Assembly: GCF_014635085.1 (NCBI RefSeq)
Contig: NZ_BMCH01000002.1
Coordinates: forward strand, 248,001-312,000
Length of the DNA stretch: 64,000 bases
Source: Asaia siamensis
GTDB taxonomy: Bacteria > Pseudomonadota > Alphaproteobacteria > Acetobacterales > Acetobacteraceae
Reading direction: 5' to 3'
A program made the position numbers and the translations under genes. Within the stretch, counting starts at the first letter, position 1, and every line of letters starts with the position of its first letter. The notes under the pieces are model-generated. The model saw only the letters and a list, made by a program, of their open reading frames with translations, was not told where the DNA came from and made no database searches. Below are positions 9,510 through 21,269 of the stretch, in pieces.

Positions 9510-10379
9510 TCAGCCCCGGCGCTCTGCCACGGCAGCGGCGAGCGTCGAGACCAGAACCATCGAGGCGGCGTTTGAGCGAAAGCCCTGAAAATCCGCCTCG
9601 TGTACTTCAAGCCATAGCCCTGATTGCGGAATGACCGGACTGGCAGCGCTGTCGGTCATGGAAATGACGGGCACCTGTCGTGCCTCAAGGGCTTCGAACA
9701 ATTCCACGGTGCGTGGTGCATAGGCCTTGTAGCTCAGAAGCAGGGCGGCATCTTTCGGCCCGGCATGGGCAAAGCTTTCTTCTTCCATGCCGGTTTCGAG
9801 CCCGATGATCTGGTGACGGATATCGAGCTTTGCGAGAAGATAGGACAGATAGCGAATGACCGGCATCGAGCGTCTCAACCCGAGAAGATAGAGACACTCG
9901 GCCTGGGCCAGGGTCGTGACCGCAGCCTCGAGTCTGTCTGGCATCAGCTGTGTCTGAAGTGCACGCAGCGATTCCTGGGCTGCTTCATAAAACCCGTTGA
10001 AAATGACCGAGGCCTCCACCGCCTCGCCATCGACGCGGTGTAGCGCATTGACCCGCTCCCGATAGGTGACATTGCGCACGCGCAGCCTGTCGCGAAAAAC
10101 GGCCTGCATATCCGAAAAACCGGCAAATCCAAGCGTGCGGGCAAAGCGCACCACGGTTGAGGGCTGCACCCCGGCCTGGCTGGCCAGAGAACTGACTGTG
10201 CCCAGAGCGACTTCGTCGGGCGCATCGCTGACGAAATCTGCCAGCTGCACCAGTCTTTTCGGCAGTTCGGCGTAGCAAAGGCGCAGCCGGTGATGAAACG
10301 CGTCGAAATCGGATTGGGTGGGTGAGGGATCTTCGGGAATCTCGGTCAAGGCTGCACAATCCGAAAAGGGAATAAACAT
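9510..10379 (-). CDS. RpiR/MurR-family regulator, probable inositol repressor (IolR-type)
   Basis: About 289 residues: an N-terminal HTH_6 domain (VSSLASQAGVQPSTVVRFARTLGFAGFSDM, about residues 45-75) and a C-terminal SIS sugar-phosphate-binding domain (ECLYLLGLRRSMPVIRYLSYLL). It diverges from iolC, the arrangement of the Sinorhizobium IolR repressor, whose reported operator is GGAA-N6-TTCC; one perfect copy covers this gene's start and two near copies precede iolC. It is likely to sense an inositol-derived phosphate and to repress itself and the iol operon (inference). I use ATG 10379; an in-frame GTG at 10418 is a possible earlier start and neither has a good ribosome site. Confidence 0.85.
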   Translation of the reverse strand: MFIPFSDCAALTEIPEDPSPTQSDFDAFHHRLRLCYAELPKRLVQLADFVSDAPDEVALGTVSSLASQAGVQPSTVVRFARTLGFAGFSDMQAVFRDRLRVRNVTYRERVNALHRVDGEAVEASVIFNGFYEAAQESLRALQTQLMPDRLEAAVTTLAQAECLYLLGLRRSMPVIRYLSYLLAKLDIRHQIIGLETGMEEESFAHAGPKDAALLLSYKAYAPRTVELFEALEARQVPVISMTDSAASPVIPQSGLWLEVHEADFQGFRSNAASMVLVSTLAAAVAERRG

Positions 10380-10382
10380 TCC
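10369..10382. promoter_or_regulatory. Candidate IolR operator, perfect GGAA-N6-TTCC
   Basis: GGAA-TAAACA-TTCC matches the palindrome reported for the Sinorhizobium RpiR-type inositol repressor. It overlaps the start codon of the divergent regulator gene, so binding would block its own expression. Confidence 0.6.
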
Positions 10383-10480
10383 ATAGCATTTCACGCCCCC
10401 CGGACGAAGCGGCCGCACGATGCGCCCCGGGCGTTCGGCCAGACTTAATCACATAAGCGTGCGAAGTTAAAGAAAATTAG

Positions 10481-10494
10481 GGAATGTACGTTCT
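10481..10494. promoter_or_regulatory. Candidate IolR operator upstream of iolC (site 1)
   Basis: GGAA-TGTACG-TTCT has one mismatch to GGAA-N6-TTCC. It is 31 bases, about three helical turns, from a near-identical copy at 10512, so two dimers could bind on one DNA face. Confidence 0.55.
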
Positions 10495-10511
10495 ACGGCG
10501 TGACCATGAAC

Positions 10512-10525
10512 GGAATGTATGTTCT
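10512..10525. promoter_or_regulatory. Candidate IolR operator upstream of iolC (site 2)
   Basis: GGAA-TGTATG-TTCT differs from site 1 by one base in the spacer and lies 37 bases before the chosen iolC start. The 14-base direct repeat in a short leader is unlikely to be chance. Confidence 0.55.
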
Positions 10526-10561
10526 TATCATGTGCAACGTAACATGCTGCAGGAGTCGGGG

Positions 10562-12487
10562 ATGCGCGGACAGGATCTCGATATCGTCGCAATAGGACGT
10601 TCTTCAGTCGATCTTTACGGACAGCAGATTGGCGGCCGTCTCGAAGATATGGCCAGTTTCAGCAAGGCTGTCGGCGGGTGTCCCGCCAATATCGCGATCG
10701 GCACCGCCCGTCTCGGGCTCAAATCGGCGCTTATCACGCGCGTGGGGCACGAGCATTTCGGCCGGTTCATTACAGAGCAGCTTCAGCGCGAGGGGGTATG
10801 CACCGACGGTGTGCGTATCGACCGCGACCGCTTCACGGCTCTGGCCATTCTGGGTGTGCGTGACCGTGAAAATTTCCCGCTGCTTTTTTATCGTACCGAT
10901 TGCGCCGATGCGGCGCTTGATGAGGGCGATATCGATCCGGCGCTGATTGCACGCACCAGAGCGGTTGTCGTGACCGGTACGCATTTTTCACGTCCGGCAT
11001 CGGCCAAAGCCCAGCGCAAGGCTATGGATCTTGTCCATGAGCATGGCGGCAAGGTCGTCTTCGATGTGGATTATCGCCCCAATCTCTGGGGGCTGGCCGG
11101 GATCGGTGACGGCGAGTCACGCTATGTCAAATCTGACAGCGTGACGGCCCATCTGAAAGAGATCCTGCCGCATTGCGATCTTATCGTGGGGACCGAAGAA
11201 GAGCTGCATATTGCAGGCGGCAGCGAGGATACGCTTGAGGCCATCCGTGCCATCAGGGCGGTGTCGAAAGCCACGATCGTCTGCAAGCGCGGACCGATGG
11301 GGTGCGTCGTGTTCGAGGGCGCCATTCCGCCTTCGCTCGAGGACGGCATTTCCGGCCCCGGCTTCCCCGTCGAGGTCTATAATACGCTCGGTGCAGGCGA
11401 TGCCTTCATGTCAGGTTTCCTGCGTGGCTGGGTGAGGGGCGAGAAAATCGCCGAGTGCTGCCGTTTCGCCAATGCCTGCGGGGCTTTTGCCGTATCGCGC
11501 CTGCTCTGCTCGTCGGAAATTCCGACCTGGGAAGAGCTCAGCTATTTTCTGGCAAAAGGCAGCAGCGAGCGCGCCTTGCGTCATGATGACGCGCTCAACC
11601 ACCTGCACTGGGTTACCACGCGGCGTCAGCAGACCACGCCCATCATGGCTCTGGCCTGTGACCATCGTCTGCAGCTTGAAGAAATCGCGGCCTCTGTCGG
11701 CGCTTCCTTCGACCGCATTCCCGCTTTCAAGAAACTCGCGGTCCAGGCGGCAAAATGGGTGGCGCAGGGGCGTCCCGGTTTTGGTGTCTTCATGGATGGG
11801 CGCTACGGTCAGGAGGCGCTGTTCGAAGCCTCTCATGCCGGGCTCTGGACGGCACGTCCCATCGAGAAAACCGGTTCGCGCCCGCTCGATTTCGAAAGCG
11901 GCGGATCGCTTGGCGCCCATCTTGTGGAATGGCCGAGCGAGCAGGTGATCAAATGCCTGTGCTTCTACCATCCCGATGACAGCGCGGAACTCAAGGCGCG
12001 GCAGGAGCGCGAACTGATCCGCGCTCAGGATGCCTGCCGCAAACTGGGCAAGGAAATCCTGATCGAGATCATCGCGGGCAAGAACGGTGCGCTCACCAGC
12101 AATACCGTCTCGTCCATTCTCTCGCGTCTTTACGATGTTGGGCTGCGTCCCGACTGGTGGAAGCTTGAAGGGCAGCGCGACCCGAAGGCCTGGGAGAACA
12201 TCGGCGCAGTCATCGAAGCGCGTGATCCTCACTGCCGCGGTGTGGTGATTCTGGGCCTCGATGCCCCGGCAGAAGAGCTGATGGAAGCTTTCAGGGCTTC
12301 GGCAGCCACGCCCTGGGTCAAGGGCTTTGCCATAGGGCGCACCATTTTTGCCCAGCCTGCTCGTGACTGGCTGGCTGGAAAAACCACCGATGAGCAGGCC
12401 GTTGCCGAAATGGCGCGTCGTTTCAGCGCCTTTGTAGAGGCCTGGACATCGCGCGACCAGTCGGCGCTGTCCGGCGCCAACGCCTGA
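10562..12487 (+). CDS. iolC: 5-dehydro-2-deoxygluconokinase fused to a DUF2090 aldolase-like domain
   Basis: A 641-residue two-domain protein. Residues 1 to about 335 are a PfkB kinase (VGGCPANIAIGTARLGLKSA and NTLGAGDAFMSGFLRGW) that phosphorylates 2-deoxy-5-keto-gluconate. Residues about 345-641 are DUF2090 (IMALACDHRLQLEEIA, DWWKLEGQRDP, VILGLDAP), a class I aldolase-like domain found fused to IolC in many proteobacteria and suspected to replace the separate aldolase IolJ. Start ATG 10562 has AGGAG 6 bases upstream; the frame is open 78 bases further but that part holds the operators. First gene of the iol operon, 17 bases before iolD. Confidence 0.94.
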   Translation: MRGQDLDIVAIGRSSVDLYGQQIGGRLEDMASFSKAVGGCPANIAIGTARLGLKSALITRVGHEHFGRFITEQLQREGVCTDGVRIDRDRFTALAILGVRDRENFPLLFYRTDCADAALDEGDIDPALIARTRAVVVTGTHFSRPASAKAQRKAMDLVHEHGGKVVFDVDYRPNLWGLAGIGDGESRYVKSDSVTAHLKEILPHCDLIVGTEEELHIAGGSEDTLEAIRAIRAVSKATIVCKRGPMGCVVFEGAIPPSLEDGISGPGFPVEVYNTLGAGDAFMSGFLRGWVRGEKIAECCRFANACGAFAVSRLLCSSEIPTWEELSYFLAKGSSERALRHDDALNHLHWVTTRRQQTTPIMALACDHRLQLEEIAASVGASFDRIPAFKKLAVQAAKWVAQGRPGFGVFMDGRYGQEALFEASHAGLWTARPIEKTGSRPLDFESGGSLGAHLVEWPSEQVIKCLCFYHPDDSAELKARQERELIRAQDACRKLGKEILIEIIAGKNGALTSNTVSSILSRLYDVGLRPDWWKLEGQRDPKAWENIGAVIEARDPHCRGVVILGLDAPAEELMEAFRASAATPWVKGFAIGRTIFAQPARDWLAGKTTDEQAVAEMARRFSAFVEAWTSRDQSALSGANA

Positions 12488-12504
12488 AGCCAGGGAGCAG
12501 GGGA

Positions 12505-14361
12505 ATGAAAACGATCCGTTTGACCATGAGCCAGGCCCTTGTGCGGGCGATGATGGCACAGAAGACCGAAATCGACGGGCGTATCGAGCCTTTCTTTGCC
12601 GGTGTCTGGGCTATTTTCGGCCATGGCAATGTGGCCGGTCTGGGCGAGGCGCTGCATGCACAACGCGATGCGCTGCCGACGCTGCGCGGTCATAACGAGC
12701 AGGGCATGGTTCATGCGGCCACGGCTTTTGCCAAGGCGTCGCGTCGCCGTCGGGCGATGGCCTGCACCAGCTCGATCGGGCCGGGCGCATTGAACATGGT
12801 CACGGGTGCCGCCGTCGCCCATGTGAACCGTCTGCCGGTTCTGCTTCTGCCGGGCGATGTGTTTGCCAATCGTATTCCCGATCCGGTGCTTCAGCAGGTT
12901 GAGGATTTCGGCGATGGTACGGTCAGCGCGAGCGATGCCTTTCGTTCGGTCTCCCGCTATTTCGACCGTATCACCCGGCCGGAGCAGATCATTCCCGCAT
13001 TCAACCGTGCCATGGCCGTTCTGACCGACCCGGCAGAATGCGGCCCTGTCACCCTCTCTCTGTGTCAGGATGTGCAGGCCGAGGCCTTCGATTATCCCGA
13101 GAGCTTTTTTGCAGAGCGCCTTCATCGCATTCGCCGCCCTGTTGCAGATGAGGTCGAACTGGAAGAGGCCATTGCCCTGATCAGCCAGTCGCGCAAGCCA
13201 TTGGTGATTGCAGGTGGTGGTGTGCTCTATGCCGGTATCGAGAAGCAGCTTGCAGCTTTCTGTGCCGAGCGAGGGATCCCCGTCGGTGAGACGCAGGCCG
13301 GGCGCTCCTCCCTGCCGACCTCGAACAGCCTGAACATGGGCGGTATTGGTGTCAGCGGCAGTTCGGCAGCCAATGCGATGGCCGCTGAGGCGGATCTCGT
13401 GATTGCCGTAGGCACCCGCCTTGCCGATTTCACCACCGGGTCCTGGGGGTTGTTCTCCAATCCCGACATGAAAATCGTCTCGCTGAATATCCAGCCTTTC
13501 GATGCCACCAAGCATCAGGCCCTGGCAGTTGTTGGCGACGCCGGTAAATCGCTGACGGCGCTTCAGAACGGTCTCAAGGGCTGGAAAGCCGCTCCTGAAT
13601 GGACGGGCAAGGCGGAGCGCGAATATCGAAACTGGATGGAGATTTCTGCCCGCTATCAGGCACTGCCCGATGCGAGCCAGAAGACGCTGCCAACCGATGC
13701 GCAGGTGATTGGCGCCGTGCAGCGCGCCGGTCGCCCCACCGATACGGTCGTGTGCGCGGCGGGCGGTCTGCCAGCCGAATTGCAGAAGCACTGGCAGGCC
13801 GAGCAGCCCGGCGGATACCATATGGAATATGGCTTTTCCTGCATGGGCTATGAGCTGGCCGGCGCTTTGGGCGTCAAGATGGCCTGCCCTGATCGCGAGG
13901 TGATCGTGATGCTGGGCGATGGTTCCTGGCTGATGCTGAACACCGAAATCGCGACATCCGCGCTGCTCGACAAGAAGCTGATTGTCGTGCTGCTCGATAA
14001 TCATGGCTATGGCTGCATCAACCGGCTGCAGCAGGAATGCGGCGGGGCCCCGTTCAACAATCTCTGGGAAGATTGCCGGCAGGTGCGCCCCTTCGCGATC
14101 GACTTCGTGCAGCTCGCCCGTGGGCTGGGCGCGCATGCGGAAAAGGTCGCTGGCCTTCCGGCACTGACCGAGGCTGTCGAGCGCGCCCGTTCTGCCGATC
14201 GTACCACGGTTCTGGTGATCGACACCGATCCCGCACCGACCACGACCGATGGCGGTGCCTGGTGGGACGTGGCCGTGCCGGCGGTCTCGCCAAGACCTCA
14301 GGTGGAAAAAGCCCGTGAGGGTTACGAACGCAAGCGCGGCGCACAGCGCATCGGCAACTGA
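12505..14361 (+). CDS. iolD: 3D-(3,5/4)-trihydroxycyclohexane-1,2-dione acylhydrolase
   Basis: A 618-residue thiamine-diphosphate enzyme that opens the inositol-derived ring to give 5-deoxy-glucuronate. Seen are the N-terminal HNEQGMVHAATAFAKAS with the cofactor-activating Glu, the central nucleotide-like domain (LVIAGGGVLYAGIEKQL) and the ThDP motif starting MLGDGSWLMLNTEIATSALL and ending DNHGYG. Length is that of the IolD family. AGGGGA precedes ATG 12505. It lies between iolC and iolE in the order of the pathway operon. Confidence 0.96.
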   Translation: MKTIRLTMSQALVRAMMAQKTEIDGRIEPFFAGVWAIFGHGNVAGLGEALHAQRDALPTLRGHNEQGMVHAATAFAKASRRRRAMACTSSIGPGALNMVTGAAVAHVNRLPVLLLPGDVFANRIPDPVLQQVEDFGDGTVSASDAFRSVSRYFDRITRPEQIIPAFNRAMAVLTDPAECGPVTLSLCQDVQAEAFDYPESFFAERLHRIRRPVADEVELEEAIALISQSRKPLVIAGGGVLYAGIEKQLAAFCAERGIPVGETQAGRSSLPTSNSLNMGGIGVSGSSAANAMAAEADLVIAVGTRLADFTTGSWGLFSNPDMKIVSLNIQPFDATKHQALAVVGDAGKSLTALQNGLKGWKAAPEWTGKAEREYRNWMEISARYQALPDASQKTLPTDAQVIGAVQRAGRPTDTVVCAAGGLPAELQKHWQAEQPGGYHMEYGFSCMGYELAGALGVKMACPDREVIVMLGDGSWLMLNTEIATSALLDKKLIVVLLDNHGYGCINRLQQECGGAPFNNLWEDCRQVRPFAIDFVQLARGLGAHAEKVAGLPALTEAVERARSADRTTVLVIDTDPAPTTTDGGAWWDVAVPAVSPRPQVEKAREGYERKRGAQRIGN

Positions 14362-14413
14362 GACAGGTTCATGCCGCCCCGCCCAAGACAGGCGGCGGGG
14401 CAAGGAGACGAGT

Positions 14414-15313
14414 ATGACGATCAAGATCGGCGCCAATCCTATCATCTGGTCCAATGACGACATGCAGTCGGTTGGCGCATCCACAACGCTTGAGATGTGT
14501 CTGGCTCAGGCCAGAAAGGCCGGGATCCAGGGCATGGAACTTGGGCATAAATTTCCCCAGACCGTTTCCGGCATGAAGGCGGCACTCGAACCGTTCGGGC
14601 TCGAATTCATTTCCGGCTGGTGGTCGACCGAGTTGCTGACGCGCAGCGCCGAGGAGGAAATTGCCGCCCTCAAGCCGCGTCTCGAACTGCTCAAGGGCAT
14701 GGGATGCAAGGTCTGCATCGCAGCCGAGACATCGAATGCCATTCATGGCCAGATCGATACCCCGCTTTCTGCGCGCCCCTATCTGGCTGCTGGGGAGTGG
14801 CAGGAATTTGCCCGCCGCATGACGGTCGTGGCCGGTTTCCTCGCCGATCACGGGATCGATCTTGTCTACCATCACCATATGGGCACGGTCGTGCAGTCGC
14901 GCGAGGATATCGCGCGCTTCATGGATCTGACGGGGCCGTCAGTGAAGCTGCTGCTCGATACGGGCCATGCGCTCTGGGGCGGCTCCGATCCGGCAGAGCT
15001 GGCACGTTCCTATCGTGAGCGCATCCGCCATGTGCATGGCAAGGATATTCGTCCGTTCAAGCGCGCCCAGGCTGATGTCTATGACTGGAGCTTCCTGCGC
15101 AGTGTGTTGTCTGGTGTCTTTACCGTACCCGGCGATGGCTGCATCGATTATGCCCGCGTCATGCGCGAACTGCCCGATTATTCCGGCTGGATTGTGCTCG
15201 AAGCCGAACAGGACCCTGAAATTGCCAATCCGCTCGTCTATGCGCGCATGGGCCGCAATTATCTGGTCGATACGCTGATCGCGACGGGCCATATGAAAGG
15301 GGATGCGTCATGA
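14414..15313 (+). CDS. iolE: Myo-inosose-2 dehydratase
   Basis: About 299 residues with a xylose-isomerase-like TIM-barrel fold: MTIKIGANPIIWSNDD at the N-terminus, IQGMELGHKFP, VYHHHMGTVVQ and LLLDTGHALWGGSDP. It dehydrates 2-keto-myo-inositol to the dione used by IolD. AAGGAGA stands just before ATG 14414; the open frame extends upstream to 14249 but the upstream part overlaps iolD and lacks family similarity. Its stop overlaps the iolB start by four bases (ATGA), so the two are translationally coupled. Confidence 0.95.
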   Translation: MTIKIGANPIIWSNDDMQSVGASTTLEMCLAQARKAGIQGMELGHKFPQTVSGMKAALEPFGLEFISGWWSTELLTRSAEEEIAALKPRLELLKGMGCKVCIAAETSNAIHGQIDTPLSARPYLAAGEWQEFARRMTVVAGFLADHGIDLVYHHHMGTVVQSREDIARFMDLTGPSVKLLLDTGHALWGGSDPAELARSYRERIRHVHGKDIRPFKRAQADVYDWSFLRSVLSGVFTVPGDGCIDYARVMRELPDYSGWIVLEAEQDPEIANPLVYARMGRNYLVDTLIATGHMKGDAS

Positions 15314-16110
15314 GCTCCCGGCTTCTGGTGCATTCGCACAAGCCCGACGAGAAGAAACGCACCGTCTCGGTCACACCGCAATCGGCGGGGTGGGGTTATA
15401 TCGATTTCAATGTCCGGTCTCTGGCCGCGGGTGAGCAGATTGCAGACCGCACAGGGCCGAACGAGGTCTGCCTTGTGCTGGTGAGCGGCAGGGCACGAAT
15501 TATCGGCGCCGGGCAGGATTTCGGTGTGCTGGGCGAACGCATGGACCCGTTCAGTGGGGCGCCCTGGTCGGTCTATCTTCCTTCAGGTGCGGAGTGGCGC
15601 GTCGAGGCTGAGACAGCGGTGGAACTCGCCGTCTGCGGCTCGCCCGCCAAGGGGAAATATCCGGCAAGGGTCATTCCCCCGTCAGAGGTCGGCGAACTGA
15701 CGCGTGGCACCGGCACCAATCAGCGCTTTGTGCGCAATATTCTGCCCGATACGGCGCCAGCGGAAACGCTGCTTGTGGTTGAGGTCATCACACCGGGCGG
15801 GCATTGGTCGAGCTATCCGCCGCACAAGCATGATACGGATGATTTCCCGAACGAGACCTATCTCGAGGAAACCTATTACCACCGTCTGAAACGCGGCAGC
15901 GGTTTCGCGTTGCAGCGTGTCTATACCAAGGATGGGTCGCTCGACGAGGCCATGGCTGTGGCCGATCGTGACGTGGTGCTGGTGCCCAAGGGCTATCACC
16001 CTGTCGGTGCCCCGCACGGGTTTGACCTCTATTATCTCAACGTGATGGCAGGGCCGCGCCGGGTGTGGAAATTCACCATGGATCCCGACCAGGCCTTTCT
16101 TCCCTACTGA
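15310..16110 (+). CDS. iolB: 5-deoxy-glucuronate isomerase
   Basis: 266 residues of the bicupin KduI/IolB family. The metal-binding region WSSYPPHKHDTDDFPNETYL followed by EETYYHRL is clear, as is the later VLVPKGYHPVGAPHGFDLYY. It converts 5-deoxy-glucuronate to 2-deoxy-5-keto-gluconate, the substrate of IolC. It overlaps iolE by four bases and precedes inositol dehydrogenase by 24 bases. Confidence 0.96.
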   Translation: MSSRLLVHSHKPDEKKRTVSVTPQSAGWGYIDFNVRSLAAGEQIADRTGPNEVCLVLVSGRARIIGAGQDFGVLGERMDPFSGAPWSVYLPSGAEWRVEAETAVELAVCGSPAKGKYPARVIPPSEVGELTRGTGTNQRFVRNILPDTAPAETLLVVEVITPGGHWSSYPPHKHDTDDFPNETYLEETYYHRLKRGSGFALQRVYTKDGSLDEAMAVADRDVVLVPKGYHPVGAPHGFDLYYLNVMAGPRRVWKFTMDPDQAFLPY

Positions 16111-16134
16111 TCCGGAAAAGCGGAGTTCAGAGAC

Positions 16135-17148
16135 ATGACTCTCAAGATTGGTGTCATTGGCACGGGTGCCATTGGTGAAGACCATATCCGTCGCTGCATG
16201 CAGGCACTCTCTGGTGCCGAGATCGTTGCCGTGACGGATGTCAATCTCGATCGCGCCCGCGAGGTGGCTGAAAAATACGCCCCCGGCGCAAAGGTGCCCG
16301 ATGACGGTGAATCGCTGATTGCCCTGCCCGAGGTCGAGGCGGTGATCGTGACCTCCTGGGGGGGCACCCACGCACGATATGTGCTCGAGGCCATTCGTCA
16401 CAGGAAATATGTCTTCTGCGAAAAGCCGCTCGCAACAACGGCTGAAGATTGCCTGAAAATCGTCGAGGCCGAGGCGGCCTACGGCAGGAGGCTGGTGCAG
16501 GTCGGTTTCATGCGGCCTTATGATACTGGCTATCGCGCGCTCAAATCGCTCATCGACAAGGGTGAGATTGGTGAGGTGCTGATGATCCATGCAGCCCATC
16601 GCAACCAGCGTGTGGGTGCAAATTACAAGACCGACATGGGGATCACCGATACGCTCATTCATGAGCTGGACGTGTTCCGCTGGATGCTGGGCGATGATTA
16701 CGTAAGCGCGCAGGTCATTTTCCCTCGCAGCAGCAGCAAGGCCATGGCGCATATCCGTGATCCGCAGATCGTTCTGCTGGAAACGAAAAAAGGCATCCGT
16801 ATCGATGTCGAGATCTTCGTCAATTGCCAGTACGGCTACGATATCAAATGCGCGGTGGTCGGCGAGCTCGGTGAAGCCAGCCTGCCGATGCCGCCCGCCG
16901 TTGAGCTGCGCAAATCGGCAGCCCGCTCGACAGAAATCATGACCGACTGGAAAGAGCGTTTCATCGCGGCCTATGACGTCGAGCTGCAGGACTTCATCAA
17001 CGGGGTGAAGGCAGACGCGCTCAATGGCGCGACGTCATGGGATGGTTACTGCGCCTCTGTCGCCGCCGATGCCTGCGTCAGAGCGCAGGAAACCGGCCAG
17101 ATCGAGAAAATAGACATGACAGCACGTCCGTCTCTCTACGGCGGCTGA
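16135..17148 (+). CDS. iolG: Inositol 2-dehydrogenase
   Basis: 337 residues of the Gfo/Idh/MocA family: N-terminal NAD site [16 protein letters not shown], cofactor/substrate motif [14 protein letters not shown] with the conserved Lys, and [15 protein letters not shown] with the His of the active site. It oxidises myo-inositol to 2-keto-myo-inositol, the first step of the pathway. GGAG lies upstream of ATG 16135. Placed at the end of the catabolic block, before the transporter. The name idhA is also used for this gene in rhizobia. Confidence 0.93.
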
Positions 17149-17280
17149 CCATTTTCAGGCGGAAGGAAGAAAACCGCATCGACAGGGCCGTCGGGATCTG
17201 CCGCGTCATCGCAGGCGCATGAGCAGCACAGGGCGCACAGGATCCAGAACGGCTGTCTGAACCCAATCAATGACTGTCCC

Positions 17281-17302
17281 TCCCGGCGATAAAACGCCGG
17301 GA
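17281..17302 (+). promoter_or_regulatory. Hairpin in the leader of the sugar-porter gene
   Basis: TCCCGGCG and CGCCGGGA pair perfectly over 8 bases around ATAAAA. The hairpin ends exactly at the AAAGGAGA ribosome site of the next gene and has no T-tract, so it is more likely an intercistronic stability or translation element than a terminator. Confidence 0.5.
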
Positions 17303-17316
17303 AAGGAGAACATTTC

Positions 17317-18783
17317 ATGAGAAGAGTAAAAGACGTCGTCATGGTGCAATCAGAGCGTCATGATGTGGGCTATGTGCTGCGTATCTGTGCGATCGCGGCC
17401 TTGGGCGGTATCCTGTTTGGCTATGACACGTCGGTCATTTCCGGCGCGATTTCGCCCTTGCAGGAATATTTCCATCTTTCGCCGGCCCAGACGGGCTGGG
17501 CTGTCTCCAATGTCGTGATCGGCTGCATGGTCGGTGCCATTGTTTCGGGCGCCATGGCAGACCGTTTTGGTCGTCGTATCACCCTGTTCATCTGCGCTCT
17601 TCTGTTCAGTGTGCAGTCGATTGGCACAGCGCTTGCCACCGATTTTACCTGGTTCGTCATTTATCGCATGCTGGGTGGCGTTGCTGTGGGCGTCGCCTCT
17701 GCCGTGTCGCCCATGTACATGTCCGAAGTCTCGCCAAAGGACATGCGCGGCCGTGCGCTCAGCATGGAGCAATTCGCGATCGTCTTCGGTCAGGTCGTGG
17801 TGTTCATCGTCAATTACCTCATTGCCCGTTCGGCCACGCCCGAATGGCTGCTGGATATGGGGTGGCGCTGGATGTTTGGGTCAGAAATCGTGCCCTGCAT
17901 CCTGTTCTGCGCGATGATTTTCTTCATTCCGGAATCGCCGCGCTGGCATGTTCTCAAGGGGCGTCATGACGAAGCCCTGAAAACGCTCACGCGTATCTCC
18001 AATGAACATCATGCCCGCAATCTGCATGCTGAAATCAGGCAGTCCCTCGGCGCGGTTGCCAAAAGCTCGCTGGGTTTCAGCAAGGTGCTGGGTGACGCCC
18101 GGGCGCGCTGGATCATTTTCGTGGGGGCCAGCATCGCTGCGCTGCAGCAGGTCACCGGCATCAATGTCATGATGTATTACGCACCGATGGTGCTGAAATC
18201 GACCAGTGGCAGCCTTCAGGCGGCCCTGTTCCAGACCATCTGGATCGGTTTTGCGCTTTTGCTCGGCTGCATCATCGGCGCCTGGATTGTCGATCGTCAT
18301 GGTCGCAAACCCCTCATGCTCTGGGGTTCCATCGGGATGATCCTGGGTTTGCTGGTCGTGTCCTGGGGGCTCTACACGCAATCCACCGGTCTGATGGCGC
18401 TGTCAGGCATGCTCGTCTTCATGCTCATGTTCGGTCTGTCCTGGGGGCCTGTCTGCTGGATCCTGATTTCTGAAATCTTCCCCAACCGTTTCCGCGCCGT
18501 GGGCATCAGCCTGGCCGTGACGTCGCAATGGGGCATGAATTTCATCGTCAGCCAGTGCTTCCCCATGCTGAGCGAAAACAAATACCTCTCCGAGCAATTC
18601 CATGGTGCCTTTTCGATGTGGCTGTTTGCGCTGCTCGGTCTGTTTGCCCTGTGGTTCGTGATGAAATTCGTACCCGAGACAAAAGGGGTCTCGCTCGAAA
18701 AAATCGAGGACACGATGATCAATCACCGTACGGCTTCGGCTTCCGCCTCGACGGTTGCCTCCAACACCACGCGTCATGTCTGA
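17317..18783 (+). CDS. MFS sugar porter, probable myo-inositol transporter (IolT-like)
   Basis: 488 residues with twelve predicted membrane segments and the full set of sugar-porter motifs: GYDTSVISGAISPLQ, DRFGRRITL, PESPRWHVLKG, QQVTGINVMMYYAP, DRHGRKPLML and VPETKGVSLEKIE. The family moves hexoses, pentoses or inositol with protons across the inner membrane. AGGAGA precedes ATG 17317. Its place inside the iol cluster, between inositol dehydrogenase and a second Idh-type enzyme, makes inositol the best guess for its substrate. Confidence 0.9.
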   Translation: MRRVKDVVMVQSERHDVGYVLRICAIAALGGILFGYDTSVISGAISPLQEYFHLSPAQTGWAVSNVVIGCMVGAIVSGAMADRFGRRITLFICALLFSVQSIGTALATDFTWFVIYRMLGGVAVGVASAVSPMYMSEVSPKDMRGRALSMEQFAIVFGQVVVFIVNYLIARSATPEWLLDMGWRWMFGSEIVPCILFCAMIFFIPESPRWHVLKGRHDEALKTLTRISNEHHARNLHAEIRQSLGAVAKSSLGFSKVLGDARARWIIFVGASIAALQQVTGINVMMYYAPMVLKSTSGSLQAALFQTIWIGFALLLGCIIGAWIVDRHGRKPLMLWGSIGMILGLLVVSWGLYTQSTGLMALSGMLVFMLMFGLSWGPVCWILISEIFPNRFRAVGISLAVTSQWGMNFIVSQCFPMLSENKYLSEQFHGAFSMWLFALLGLFALWFVMKFVPETKGVSLEKIEDTMINHRTASASASTVASNTTRHV

Positions 18784-18799
18784 GCGAGGAATAACGACC

Positions 18800-19921
18800 A
18801 TGAGAAAAATCCTTCGCGTCGGTCTGATCGGTACTGGCTTCATGGGTAAAGCCCATGCGCTTTCCTATCAGGCGGCAGGCAATGTGTTCGACGATATCCC
18901 GCGTCCGGTTCTGCATGCCGTGGCGGATATCGATGGCGCACGGGCTGAATTGTTCAGGCATCAGTTCGGATTCACCAGAGCCCTGACTGACTGGCAGCAA
19001 CTGATCGAAGACCCCGAAATCGATGTGGTGTCGATCACAACACCCACCCTGTTCCATAAGGAAATGGCGCTGGCAGCCATCGCTGCGGGCAAGCATGTGC
19101 ATTGTGAAAAGCCGCTGGCCATCAGCGCCACCGATGCGCAGGAAATGACGCTTGCCGCCGAACAGGCTGGCGTGCGCACGGCAAGCGGGTTCAACTATCT
19201 CAAGAATCCGCTCCTGAAATATGCCCGCGAGATGATTGCTGCGGGTGAACTGGGCGAGATTACCGACTTCAACGGCATTCACGCCGAAGGCTTCATGGCC
19301 GATCCGCAGACGCCCTGGTCATGGCGCTGCGACCCTGCCGGCGGTCAGGGCGCAATTGCCGATGTGGGCAGCCATATCATTGCCATCGCCCGTTTTCTGC
19401 TCGGGCCTGTGACACAGGTTTTTGCCCAGCTCGATACGCCCATCAAATCGCGCCCGGTCAAACCGGGAAGCAGCGAGCACAAGCCGGTGGGCGTGGATGA
19501 TATTGCCCGCATGATCGTAGGGTTCGAGCGTGGCTGCTCGGGGACATTGCAGGCCAACTGGCTGGCGACAGGCCGCAATATGCAGCTCGGTTTTCAGGTT
19601 TCGGGCAGCAAGGGCACGCTGGTGTTCAACCAGGAGCGCATGAACGAACTGCAGTATTTCAAGGCAGGGGAAGACACGCGAAGCAATGGTTTTCGCGTGA
19701 TCGAGTCCGGCCCGCAACATGCGCCTTATGGGGCGTTCTGTGTGGCGGGCGGTCACCATCTTGGCTTCAACGACCTCAAGACCATCGAAATGGCCGAGTT
19801 CATCCGGGCCATCGATCAGGGTGTCGCGGCGAGCCCCGATTTTCGCGAGGCATGGGAGGTGCAGCGTCTGATCGATGCCGCCGTCATGTCGCACAAGGAC
19901 AGAACCTGGCTCTCGCTCTGA
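18800..19921 (+). CDS. Gfo/Idh/MocA family oxidoreductase, possible scyllo- or chiro-inositol dehydrogenase
   Basis: 373 residues: NAD site VGLIGTGFMGKAHALSY, conserved VHCEKPLAISATDAQE and a C-terminal domain with GGQGAIADVGSHIIAIARFL, where His is expected to act in catalysis. ATG 18800 has GAGGA 9 bases upstream. It belongs to the same family as the inositol dehydrogenase two genes before it but is clearly diverged. In Bacillus, extra dehydrogenases of this family (IolX, IolW) handle scyllo-inositol, so a second inositol isomer is a reasonable but unproven substrate. Confidence 0.82.
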   Translation: MRKILRVGLIGTGFMGKAHALSYQAAGNVFDDIPRPVLHAVADIDGARAELFRHQFGFTRALTDWQQLIEDPEIDVVSITTPTLFHKEMALAAIAAGKHVHCEKPLAISATDAQEMTLAAEQAGVRTASGFNYLKNPLLKYAREMIAAGELGEITDFNGIHAEGFMADPQTPWSWRCDPAGGQGAIADVGSHIIAIARFLLGPVTQVFAQLDTPIKSRPVKPGSSEHKPVGVDDIARMIVGFERGCSGTLQANWLATGRNMQLGFQVSGSKGTLVFNQERMNELQYFKAGEDTRSNGFRVIESGPQHAPYGAFCVAGGHHLGFNDLKTIEMAEFIRAIDQGVAASPDFREAWEVQRLIDAAVMSHKDRTWLSL

Positions 19922-19931
19922 GCCCCGGCCT

Positions 19932-19957
19932 CCTCCCCGTGGCCTAGTCCGGGGAGG
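19932..19957 (+). promoter_or_regulatory. Intercistronic hairpin before the tautomerase gene
   Basis: CCTCCCCG and CGGGGAGG pair perfectly over 8 bases with a 10-base loop, shortly after the dehydrogenase stop. No T-tract follows. It may trim or stabilise the message within the iol transcript. Confidence 0.4.
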
Positions 19958-19981
19958 GGGCGTCAGAAACAAGGAAGTATC

Positions 19982-20371
19982 ATGCCGCTGCTGCATTTTC
20001 ATGTCGTAGAGGGACGCAGTGACGCCGAGATAAAGGCGATGCTCGATGCGGCCCATGAAGCCATGCTTGAAGTATTCGAAGTGCCTCGCGGGGATCGCTA
20101 CCAGATCGTCTCGGAACACAGGAAGACCCATATGATTGTCGAGGATACCGGTCTCGATATCCCCAGAACCGACAGGATGCTGGTCTTGCAGATGTTCAGC
20201 AGACCTCGCGGTGAGGCCAAAAATGCCGCCTTCTACCGGCGTCTGACCGAGCGCCTTGAGCGTGACTGCGGCATAGTGCCGTCTGATGTCATGGTTTCGG
20301 TTGTCGAGAATGAAGACGCGCACTGGTCTTTCGGTCATGGCCGCGCACAGTTCCTGACTGGCGAGTTGTAA
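19982..20371 (+). CDS. Tautomerase-superfamily protein, probable malonate semialdehyde decarboxylase
   Basis: 129 residues beginning Met-Pro, so processed Pro1 can act as the catalytic base or acid. Counting from Pro1, I see Asp37, Arg73 and Arg75 (in FSRPRGE), Trp114 and Phe116 (in HWSFGHGR), the residues reported for malonate semialdehyde decarboxylase of Pseudomonas pavonaceae; overall length and the ends (PLLHFHVVEGRSD, AQFLTGEL) also fit that enzyme as I recall it. It would turn malonate semialdehyde into acetaldehyde and CO2. In the iol cluster this could replace IolA, which is not in the window. Similarity is from memory and activity is inferred. Confidence 0.75.
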   Translation: MPLLHFHVVEGRSDAEIKAMLDAAHEAMLEVFEVPRGDRYQIVSEHRKTHMIVEDTGLDIPRTDRMLVLQMFSRPRGEAKNAAFYRRLTERLERDCGIVPSDVMVSVVENEDAHWSFGHGRAQFLTGEL

Positions 20372-20402
20372 GAGGCGTTTCTGCGTCAGGAGGAAAGCCA
20401 TC

Positions 20403-21269
20403 ATGCGTTCCGGAACCGGGCCGGAGGGCCAGTCAGATCAGTTTTCTCTCGCCGTCTGTGCGGAGATGGTATTTCTCGATCTGCCGTTCATCGACCGGGT
20501 GAAACATCTCGCAAGGGAAGGGTTTCTGGTCGAGATCTGGGACTGGACGCGCCATGACCTGAAGCGTCTCGCCGCCAGCGGCGCTGTTTTCTCCTCCATG
20601 ACGGGCTATGTCAGTGGGACACTCGCTGATGACGCGGGCGCTCATGAGATGCTGCGCACGGCAGAACTCTCGATCTGGGCGGCGAAGGATCTGGGTGTGC
20701 CGCGGCTCAATCTGCATGGCACGGGGCTTGGGCCTGAGGGGCTGCCGGTCAAACCCTGCGTCAAGGGGGCTGATGGGGCCATGTGGATGAAGGCCCGTGA
20801 CACCCTGTCACGTCTGGCTGACTTGGGAGAGAAGCACGATGTCATGTTCGTGCTCGAAAATCTCAACGCGGCGGTCGATCATCCCGATGTACCCTTCGGT
20901 CGGGCGGAGGATTGTCTGAGCCTTGTGCAGGCAGTCGATCATCCCTCCCTGCGCCTGATGCTCGATCTTTATCATGCGCAGATCGGGGAGGGGAATCTGA
21001 TTGCCCTGCTGGAACGCGCCATGCCGTTCATTGGCGAAATCCAGGTGGCTGACGTGCCGGGGCGGTGTCAGCCCGGCACGGGTGAAATCAATTATCCTGC
21101 CATTGCCAGAGCCCTTCGCCGCCTTGGTTATCGGGGGGTAATCGGTCTTGAAAGCTGGGCAGAGGCGGGCGACAGCGACCGCGCCCTGCGCGATTTCGCT
21201 AAGGCTTTCGCGGCCTATCCGGTCATGGTGCGGGGTGTGTCCTGGCCTGATCGGTCGGGGATGCTTTGA
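20403..21269 (+). CDS. Hydroxypyruvate isomerase-like TIM-barrel protein
   Basis: 288 residues of the xylose isomerase-like TIM-barrel family. The C-terminal part reads LMLDLYHAQIGEGNL, IGEIQVADVPGRCQPGTGEINY and GYRGVIGLESW, the pattern of hydroxypyruvate isomerase (Hyi) and its relatives; FVLENLNAAVDHP supplies a likely metal/substrate Glu. AGGAGG lies 9 bases before ATG 20403. It is the last gene of the inositol cluster. It may isomerise a keto-inositol or a small hydroxy-aldehyde; the Hyi-type name is only a family match. Confidence 0.75.
   Translation: MRSGTGPEGQSDQFSLAVCAEMVFLDLPFIDRVKHLAREGFLVEIWDWTRHDLKRLAASGAVFSSMTGYVSGTLADDAGAHEMLRTAELSIWAAKDLGVPRLNLHGTGLGPEGLPVKPCVKGADGAMWMKARDTLSRLADLGEKHDVMFVLENLNAAVDHPDVPFGRAEDCLSLVQAVDHPSLRLMLDLYHAQIGEGNLIALLERAMPFIGEIQVADVPGRCQPGTGEINYPAIARALRRLGYRGVIGLESWAEAGDSDRALRDFAKAFAAYPVMVRGVSWPDRSGML

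Follow-up and report, generated by a model that had tools for sequence, protein, structure and literature searches.

The window – the whole stretch of DNA analysed here, 64,000 nucleotides of an Asaia siamensis contig – carries a run of co-oriented genes (10484-21269) that begins with a fusion of iolC to a DUF2090 domain and continues with iolD, iolE, iolB, an iolG-like gene, an MFS sugar porter, a Gfo/Idh dehydrogenase, the gene under study (here MSAD, for malonate semialdehyde decarboxylase) and a TIM-barrel protein (Table 1); a divergent RpiR regulator precedes the operon. With the likeliest starts, intergenic gaps are at most 52 bases, except ahead of the MFS gene (168 bases) and of MSAD (60). 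Two starts lie inside longer listed reading frames: iolE was taken to begin at the ATG of MTIKIG, within a frame listed from 14249 (profile match given from 14396), and the Gfo/Idh/MocA dehydrogenase at an ATG within a frame listed from a TTG at 18755. The dehydrogenase adjoins MSAD in the iol clusters of Asaia, Swaminathania and Gluconobacter, and a homologue of the TIM-barrel protein adjoins it also in Brytella and in one genome of the family sample described below (G050).

The iolC–aldolase fusion is expected both to make 2-deoxy-5-keto-gluconate 6-phosphate and to cleave it to DHAP and malonate semialdehyde. A sequence-only reading of this DNA had placed MSAD inside a myo-inositol operon, and the placement is borne out: the gene is co-oriented with neighbours that pass the cut-offs for the iolC fusion, iolD, iolE and iolB, the core set of iolB, iolC, iolD and iolE standing in a single cluster. 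IolA/MmsA, which is usual though not required in or near such operons, was not found there; in the available passages of a large survey of iol clusters it lies outside the core set (PMC9430895).

Table 1. Genes and sites of the inositol operon and its divergent regulator (window coordinates).
Feature	Position	Strand	Basis
RpiR/SIS-type regulator, candidate inositol regulator	9510..10418	-	Pfam HTH_6 and SIS; divergent homologues by Brytella and Gluconobacter iol clusters
iolC fused to DUF2090 aldolase domain	10484..12487	+	NF047869, 734.5 bits (cut-off 600); PfkB and DUF2090
iolD	12505..14361	+	TIGR04377, 916 bits (cut-off 715)
iolE	14414..15313	+	TIGR04379, 361.6 bits (cut-off 290)
iolB	15310..16110	+	TIGR04378, 326.3 bits (cut-off 205)
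iolG-like inositol dehydrogenase	16135..17148	+	NF052679, 515 bits (just under cut-off 540)
Sugar-porter MFS transporter, candidate for inositol/inosose uptake	17317..18783	+	TIGR00879, 377 bits (cut-off 237.8); Sugar_tr
Gfo/Idh/MocA dehydrogenase, second of sugar/inositol type	18800..19921	+	Pfam GFO_IDH_MocA (match from 18797)
AAGGAAG, likely ribosome-binding site of MSAD	19971..19977	+	Sequence reading; ATG 4 bases on
MSAD-type tautomerase, proposed malonate semialdehyde decarboxylase	19982..20371	+	Pfam, PDB matches, residue alignment
Xylose-isomerase-like TIM-barrel protein, perhaps an inosose/keto-sugar isomerase; last of the run	20403..21269	+	AP_endonuc_2

The MSAD gene opens with an ATG and encodes 129 amino acids (Met included) without internal stops. 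Its product matches Tautomerase_2 (PF14552, E 6.9e-26, Pfam), and its three best relatives of solved structure (phmmer, PDB) are all malonate semialdehyde decarboxylase sequences: 2aag (E 5e-45), 2aaj (1.3e-44) and the FG41 enzyme 3mjz (4.8e-22). Alignment with the enzyme of Pseudomonas pavonaceae 170 (PpMSAD; PDB 2aag/2aal/2aaj) gives 57% identity over the full length and shows all eight positions checked to be shared: Pro1, Asp37, Arg73 and Arg75, together with Trp114, Phe116, Phe123 and Leu128. These eight we take to be the active-site set of MSAD, the last four forming a hydrophobic wall. By homology and by residues alike the protein falls in the MSAD subgroup of the tautomerase superfamily and is an MSAD-type tautomerase. 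The sequence-only reading had named six of the residues (all except Phe123 and Leu128), correctly numbered from Pro1, and had called for the alignment with the P. pavonaceae enzyme, in which the catalytic residues do coincide. Counterparts of the protein are found in Asaia platycodi (95% identity) and A. prunellae (92%).

Malonate semialdehyde genes elsewhere in the genome

TIGR01722 describes IolA/MmsA, the CoA-acylating (methyl)malonate semialdehyde dehydrogenase, which acts on the same intermediate as MSAD but belongs to the unrelated aldehyde dehydrogenase family and yields acetyl-CoA and NADH, whereas MSAD gives free acetaldehyde. None of the 11 matches to this model in the genome falls within the window (C2:248001-312000), as the sequence-only reading had stated. 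Its further claim, that MSAD replaces IolA, fails in this organism and is rejected for it: the genome search that it proposed found one intact MmsA/IolA on the same contig (C2:400713-402146; 700.6 bits against a cut-off of 448.5), an intact iolA being half of what had been set down in advance as counting against the claim. The gene, free of internal stops, stands alone about 132 kb from MSAD and adjoins a nucleoside hydrolase gene; the second-best aldehyde dehydrogenase of the genome reaches 264 bits. MmsA passes the cut-off in all seven Asaia of the family sample. Since an intact MmsA/IolA is present besides MSAD, two outlets for malonate semialdehyde coexist in this Asaia. A role for the MmsA as a valine enzyme is weakened by the search for HIBADH – the sole valine gene looked for – which found none over the cut-off in this genome (best 135 bits, cut-off 291.6) with a strict model that only one of 14 control genomes passed: the Asaia MmsA may thus be free for malonate semialdehyde.

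A second MSAD gene lies in the same genome (C2:344771-345157), its product 75% identical to that of the window, in a locus comprising a MocR-like regulator, an AptA-type omega-aminotransferase, MSAD, an APC permease, an aldehyde dehydrogenase and an FAD oxidase. The aminotransferase passes the AptA-type model (NF052567, 616 bits, cut-off 500); the regulator was named by eye, and the last three genes from sub-cut-off matches. Caulobacter AptA converts beta-alanine to malonate semialdehyde, and from its gene content the run is a probable beta-alanine operon, in which the MSAD paralogue would probably play the same part for beta-alanine and the aldehyde dehydrogenase could take up acetaldehyde. 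The AptA-type/MSAD cluster recurs in G. frateurii and in three further Asaia genomes (G001, G004 and G006: L117-L119).

A further arrangement, shared by Gluconobacter cadivus, G. roseus and G. wancherniae, runs in the order MocR-like regulator, aminotransferase, MSAD, dihydropyrimidinase (opposite strand), PreT, PreA and ureidopropionase-like hydrolase, the genes being named from their likeness to those of Asaia and Kozakia; a genome search found no MmsA over the cut-off in any of the three (L012, L013, L018). A Kozakia baliensis plasmid carries PreT, PreA, the hydrolase, MSAD, a TetR regulator and dihydropyrimidinase, with no aminotransferase in the stretch viewed. The dihydropyrimidinase passes TIGR02033 (594 bits, cut-off 393). 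The hydrolase passes TIGR01879 (434 bits, cut-off 204), a model of the hydantoinase/carbamoylase group, and an allantoate amidohydrolase model scores higher, so that beta-ureidopropionase is a putative assignment. The locus reads as a route from uracil through beta-alanine to malonate semialdehyde. The strongest argument for malonate semialdehyde as the MSAD substrate is that the inositol, beta-alanine and uracil routes meet there: the substrate proposed in the sequence-only reading is well supported by context, and the second MSAD beside an AptA-type gene, together with the uracil genes of relatives, strengthens the case.

MSAD genes and their neighbours in other genomes

An evenly drawn sample of 249 Acetobacteraceae genomes (completeness at least 90%) has iolD over the cut-off in 86, MmsA/IolA over the cut-off in 102 and an MSAD-like match in 51. 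Near full-length matches at 47-100% identity number 32, in 30 genomes: 14 lie by iol genes – the kind of placement in other genomes for which the sequence-only reading had proposed a search – and 7 by aminotransferase and/or uracil genes (together 21 of the 32), with 11 by neither. At 70% identity or more the proportion is 15 of 17 (iol 11, aminotransferase 4), the other two being one copy in neither setting (G042) and one whose contig ends too soon for a call (G016). MSAD is linked to iolB and iolC in G050 and G118, where iolD lies elsewhere. The iol genes of G118 (C1, L104), a genome of 2.0 Mb, look decayed: iolD is partial with one in-frame stop, and the iolC matches come in pieces.

Distant tautomerases (38% identity or less) served as a control: 24 were left after removal of three fragments, and none of the 16 in iolD-positive genomes lies near iolD, by coordinates read by hand and with draft contigs hiding linkage across their ends. 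Within the sample iolD and a close MSAD co-occur above chance (odds ratio 2.4, p 0.025, kinship ignored). Among iolD-positive genomes, those without MmsA carry MSAD no more often (3 of 24) than those with it (13 of 62; Fisher p 0.54). Neither MmsA/IolA over the cut-off nor a close MSAD is present in 21 of the 86: lack of IolA therefore does not demand MSAD, and another solution exists. Two of these 21 (G100 and G232) have a distant tautomerase, at 37% and 24%. The iolD flanks examined in nine of them (L144-L151 and L153; L152 is Komagataeibacter) showed no match to MmsA or to an Asaia aldehyde dehydrogenase and one weak match (27%, L144) to the iolA of Ligilactobacillus salivarius, among same-strand, poorly picked reading frames that may hide matches. 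G050 and G239 have iolD and a close MSAD without MmsA/IolA; G016, G218 and G220 also have iolD and MSAD, but there mmsA adjoins iolD, by coordinates.

Among the neighbours of the 11 unlinked copies and of a few other loci, 20 proteins were scanned, and no genes producing malonate semialdehyde were seen by the 11 (G042, G016 with its 4.4 kb contig, G092, G096, G218, G220, G221, G235, G242, G243 and G247). Near MSAD are a LysR regulator, a nitronate monooxygenase and an aldehyde dehydrogenase in G096, and an aldehyde dehydrogenase in G242 and G243.

Among the closest relatives, Swaminathania and every one of the seven sampled Asaia have MSAD in the iol cluster, and a search of the genus found MSAD with iol-cluster neighbours in 9 of 9 Asaia genomes. 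In one (G001, C43:125111-125498; L035, L036) the iol-linked MSAD is in two pieces in different frames, and may be either broken or the product of an assembly error. For named relatives, 13 of 14 loci were used (L022, with 40% over 43 residues, was left out); MmsA/IolA passes the cut-off in four of the 13 named genomes so reached (two Asaia, Swaminathania and Ameyamaea) and not in nine. In Brytella acorum, G. frateurii and G. cerinus iolD passes its cut-off, MSAD lies in the cluster and the best TIGR01722 match is near 300 bits. The genus of G. frateurii, defined by automatic grouping, comprises 26 genomes of unstated completeness, five of them named Gluconobacter: MmsA/IolA is over the cut-off in none, and iolD is over its own in three (G. 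frateurii, G. cerinus and G656), each with MSAD about 4.5 kb from iolD. Sixteen of the 26 have MSAD-like matches (E 1e-20 or better). All nine matches at 70% identity or more are linked, three to iol genes and six to an AptA-type aminotransferase, while the nine weaker of the 18 matches (47-58%, one partial) have no iol or aminotransferase neighbours within 1.5 kb. A genome free of detectable MmsA/IolA, as replacement of IolA would imply, is thus found in the Gluconobacter genus and in Brytella acorum and not in the window's organism: in some Gluconobacter and in B. acorum MSAD seems, from gene content, to have taken IolA's place.

Three Komagataeibacter loci (L014-L016) have MSAD on a contig with a divergent iolD (about 50% identity) and with MFS and Gfo/Idh genes. 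Their iolD is over the cut-off in two and partial in the third, and MmsA/IolA passes the cut-off in none of the three genomes.

A class-wide sample of 387 genomes has four with an MSAD match (E 1e-25 or better), two of them Acetobacteraceae. Of the others, G498 has MSAD adjoining a class-III aminotransferase, and G619 has no such gene among its listed neighbours. Plasmid records with an MSAD match number 254, and eight were chosen for reading. Two have iol genes (L. salivarius and Rhizobium jaguaris), one has uracil genes (Kozakia, the same place as in G028) and five have neither (Agrobacterium, Acetobacter oryzoeni, Methylobacterium nodulans, Pseudomonas sp. MPC6 and Klebsiella). The R. jaguaris plasmid pRCCGE525a has the order iolC-iolD-iolB-MSAD-iolE (MSAD at 8001-8390 of L126), probably a separate recruitment; the plasmid is typed as conjugative, and no iolA is annotated within 8 kb of MSAD. 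In the iol run of the L. salivarius plasmid iolA stands together with an MSAD-like gene, whose product is 38% identical to PpMSAD and retains all eight residues.

The iol-linked sequences fall into more than one group in a tree of 53 MSADs: there are seven changes of label, at least four of them forced by well supported branches. The iol-linked MSADs of Asaia and Swaminathania form one clade (98/95), apart from the aminotransferase-linked MSADs of Asaia. The tree was rooted at its midpoint, 17 of its 50 inner branches are open and its long branches (L123, L090, PpMSAD and others) are unsure. Given this scatter, MSAD seems to have entered iol clusters, or dropped out of them, repeatedly.

Proposed role and rival explanations

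According to our proposal IolG, E, D, B and C would convert myo-inositol to DHAP and malonate semialdehyde, which MSAD would split into acetaldehyde and CO2, with Pro1 acting as general acid and Arg73 and Arg75 holding the carboxylate, as they do in PpMSAD; the cell's aldehyde dehydrogenases would then turn acetaldehyde into acetate. In the window's Asaia this route, beside a separate MmsA/IolA, would be an added or preferred outlet; in Gluconobacter and Brytella lacking a detected MmsA/IolA it would be the only recognisable one. That the window gene is a malonate semialdehyde decarboxylase, forming a terminal step of inositol breakdown, we consider likely, reading catalytic activity, flux, the fate of acetaldehyde and phenotype from sequence and gene order. 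Several results speak against it: the intact MmsA/IolA of this genome, which may be free for malonate semialdehyde; the 21 iolD-positive genomes with neither enzyme and the failure of MSAD to track the absence of MmsA; the 11 close MSADs of the family sample, and the nine weaker matches of the Gluconobacter genus, without such neighbours in the stretch viewed; the split MSAD of G001; and the growth reported for the iolK mutant described below. The broader proposal – that in acetic acid bacteria MSAD generally serves as the last enzyme for malonate semialdehyde, whether this comes from inositol, beta-alanine or uracil, and that in Gluconobacter and Brytella it fully replaces MmsA/IolA, so that the pathways would end in oxidised acetaldehyde and not in acetyl-CoA – we hold with less assurance, although we favour it. 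As to the sequence-only reading, gene and pathway were right and the name of the enzyme probably so; the loss of IolA is wrong for this organism and, by the TIGR01722 searches, apparently true of some close relatives.

For Asaia a role compatible with the terminal-step view has a substantial, if smaller, claim: MSAD could be a side or detoxifying outlet for spilled malonate semialdehyde, with MmsA/IolA carrying the main flux to acetyl-CoA. The MmsA of this genome and of all seven sampled Asaia would fit, as would the single gene run of L. salivarius with both iolA and MSAD and an iolK mutant of Lactobacillus casei said to lack a phenotype. Against it, the Asaia mmsA is a solitary gene lying far outside the operon; and since no MmsA/IolA was found in three Gluconobacter-genus genomes and Brytella, a side outlet is hard to argue there.

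It is improbable that the protein is a tautomerase or isomerase of another inositol intermediate (an enol-keto step) and no decarboxylase. The superfamily is functionally diverse and its MSAD subgroup mostly uncharacterised, according to the available text of PMC5818174, but the complete MSAD residue set is present, and close homologues lie by aminotransferase and uracil-degradation genes, whose expected shared intermediate with inositol breakdown, from pathway knowledge, would be malonate semialdehyde. Still more remote is a chance placement of a mobile tautomerase gene in the operon: MSAD-like genes are indeed carried by plasmids and turn up in several unrelated settings, but iol linkage appears in several separate branches of the MSAD tree, with the well supported label changes given above, and in every iolD-positive genome of the Gluconobacter genus.

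The idea of MSAD in inositol breakdown is not wholly new. Yebra et al., in 2007, are said to have proposed that iolK of L. casei BL23 encodes an MSAD opening an acetaldehyde branch; its iol operon contains iolA as well, and disruption of iolK reportedly left growth on inositol unchanged, or little changed. The statement in the sequence-only reading that no pathway of this form had been described was too strong in view of this proposal, though that operon also has iolA. IolK and the L. salivarius plasmid tautomerase are, like the window's, MSAD-type genes inside inositol operons, but both have iolA in the same operon, whereas the Asaia operon lacks it and no copy was found genome-wide in Gluconobacter or Brytella.

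MSAD has hitherto been tied mainly to the breakdown of a synthetic fumigant: PpMSAD, so like the window's protein, is known from 1,3-dichloropropene degradation, whereas the window's gene lies in an inositol operon. The same degradation pathway is the setting given for MSAD in the accessible part of PMC10606566, and the name iolK appears for the L. casei BL23 operon in that of PMC2530867. An inositol pathway of Anaerostipes likewise departs from IolA at malonate semialdehyde, but there, in the passages available, a 3-oxoacid CoA transferase leads to propionate and acetate and no decarboxylase is named (PMC8355322), whereas the MSAD route would decarboxylate. In the titles, beginnings of abstracts and occasional passages covered – with subscription journals thinly represented – we recognised no description of MSAD ending inositol, beta-alanine or uracil breakdown. 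The accessible text of PMC11656851 lists Bacillus subtilis yodA as MSAD-like in a table that also contains iol genes and is silent on such a pathway; the available main text of the tautomerase superfamily study lacks the word inositol (PMC5818174), and that of the iol cluster survey lacks iolK, Gluconobacter and decarboxyl- (PMC9430895).

The recurrent placement of MSAD by genes that make malonate semialdehyde gives the enzyme a testable role – closing three routes through malonate semialdehyde in acetic acid bacteria, a function proposed from homology and gene neighbourhood – and suggests that some Gluconobacter may degrade inositol without IolA. Should this hold, models in which such genomes count as inositol-incomplete would need correction, and acetaldehyde or acetate would be predicted to form from inositol in industrial acetic acid bacteria.

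The Gluconobacter iol clusters (L020, L021 and L173) showed nothing matching the Asaia iolG. Periplasmic oxidation is known for Gluconobacter, and inosose formation in these bacteria may be periplasmic.
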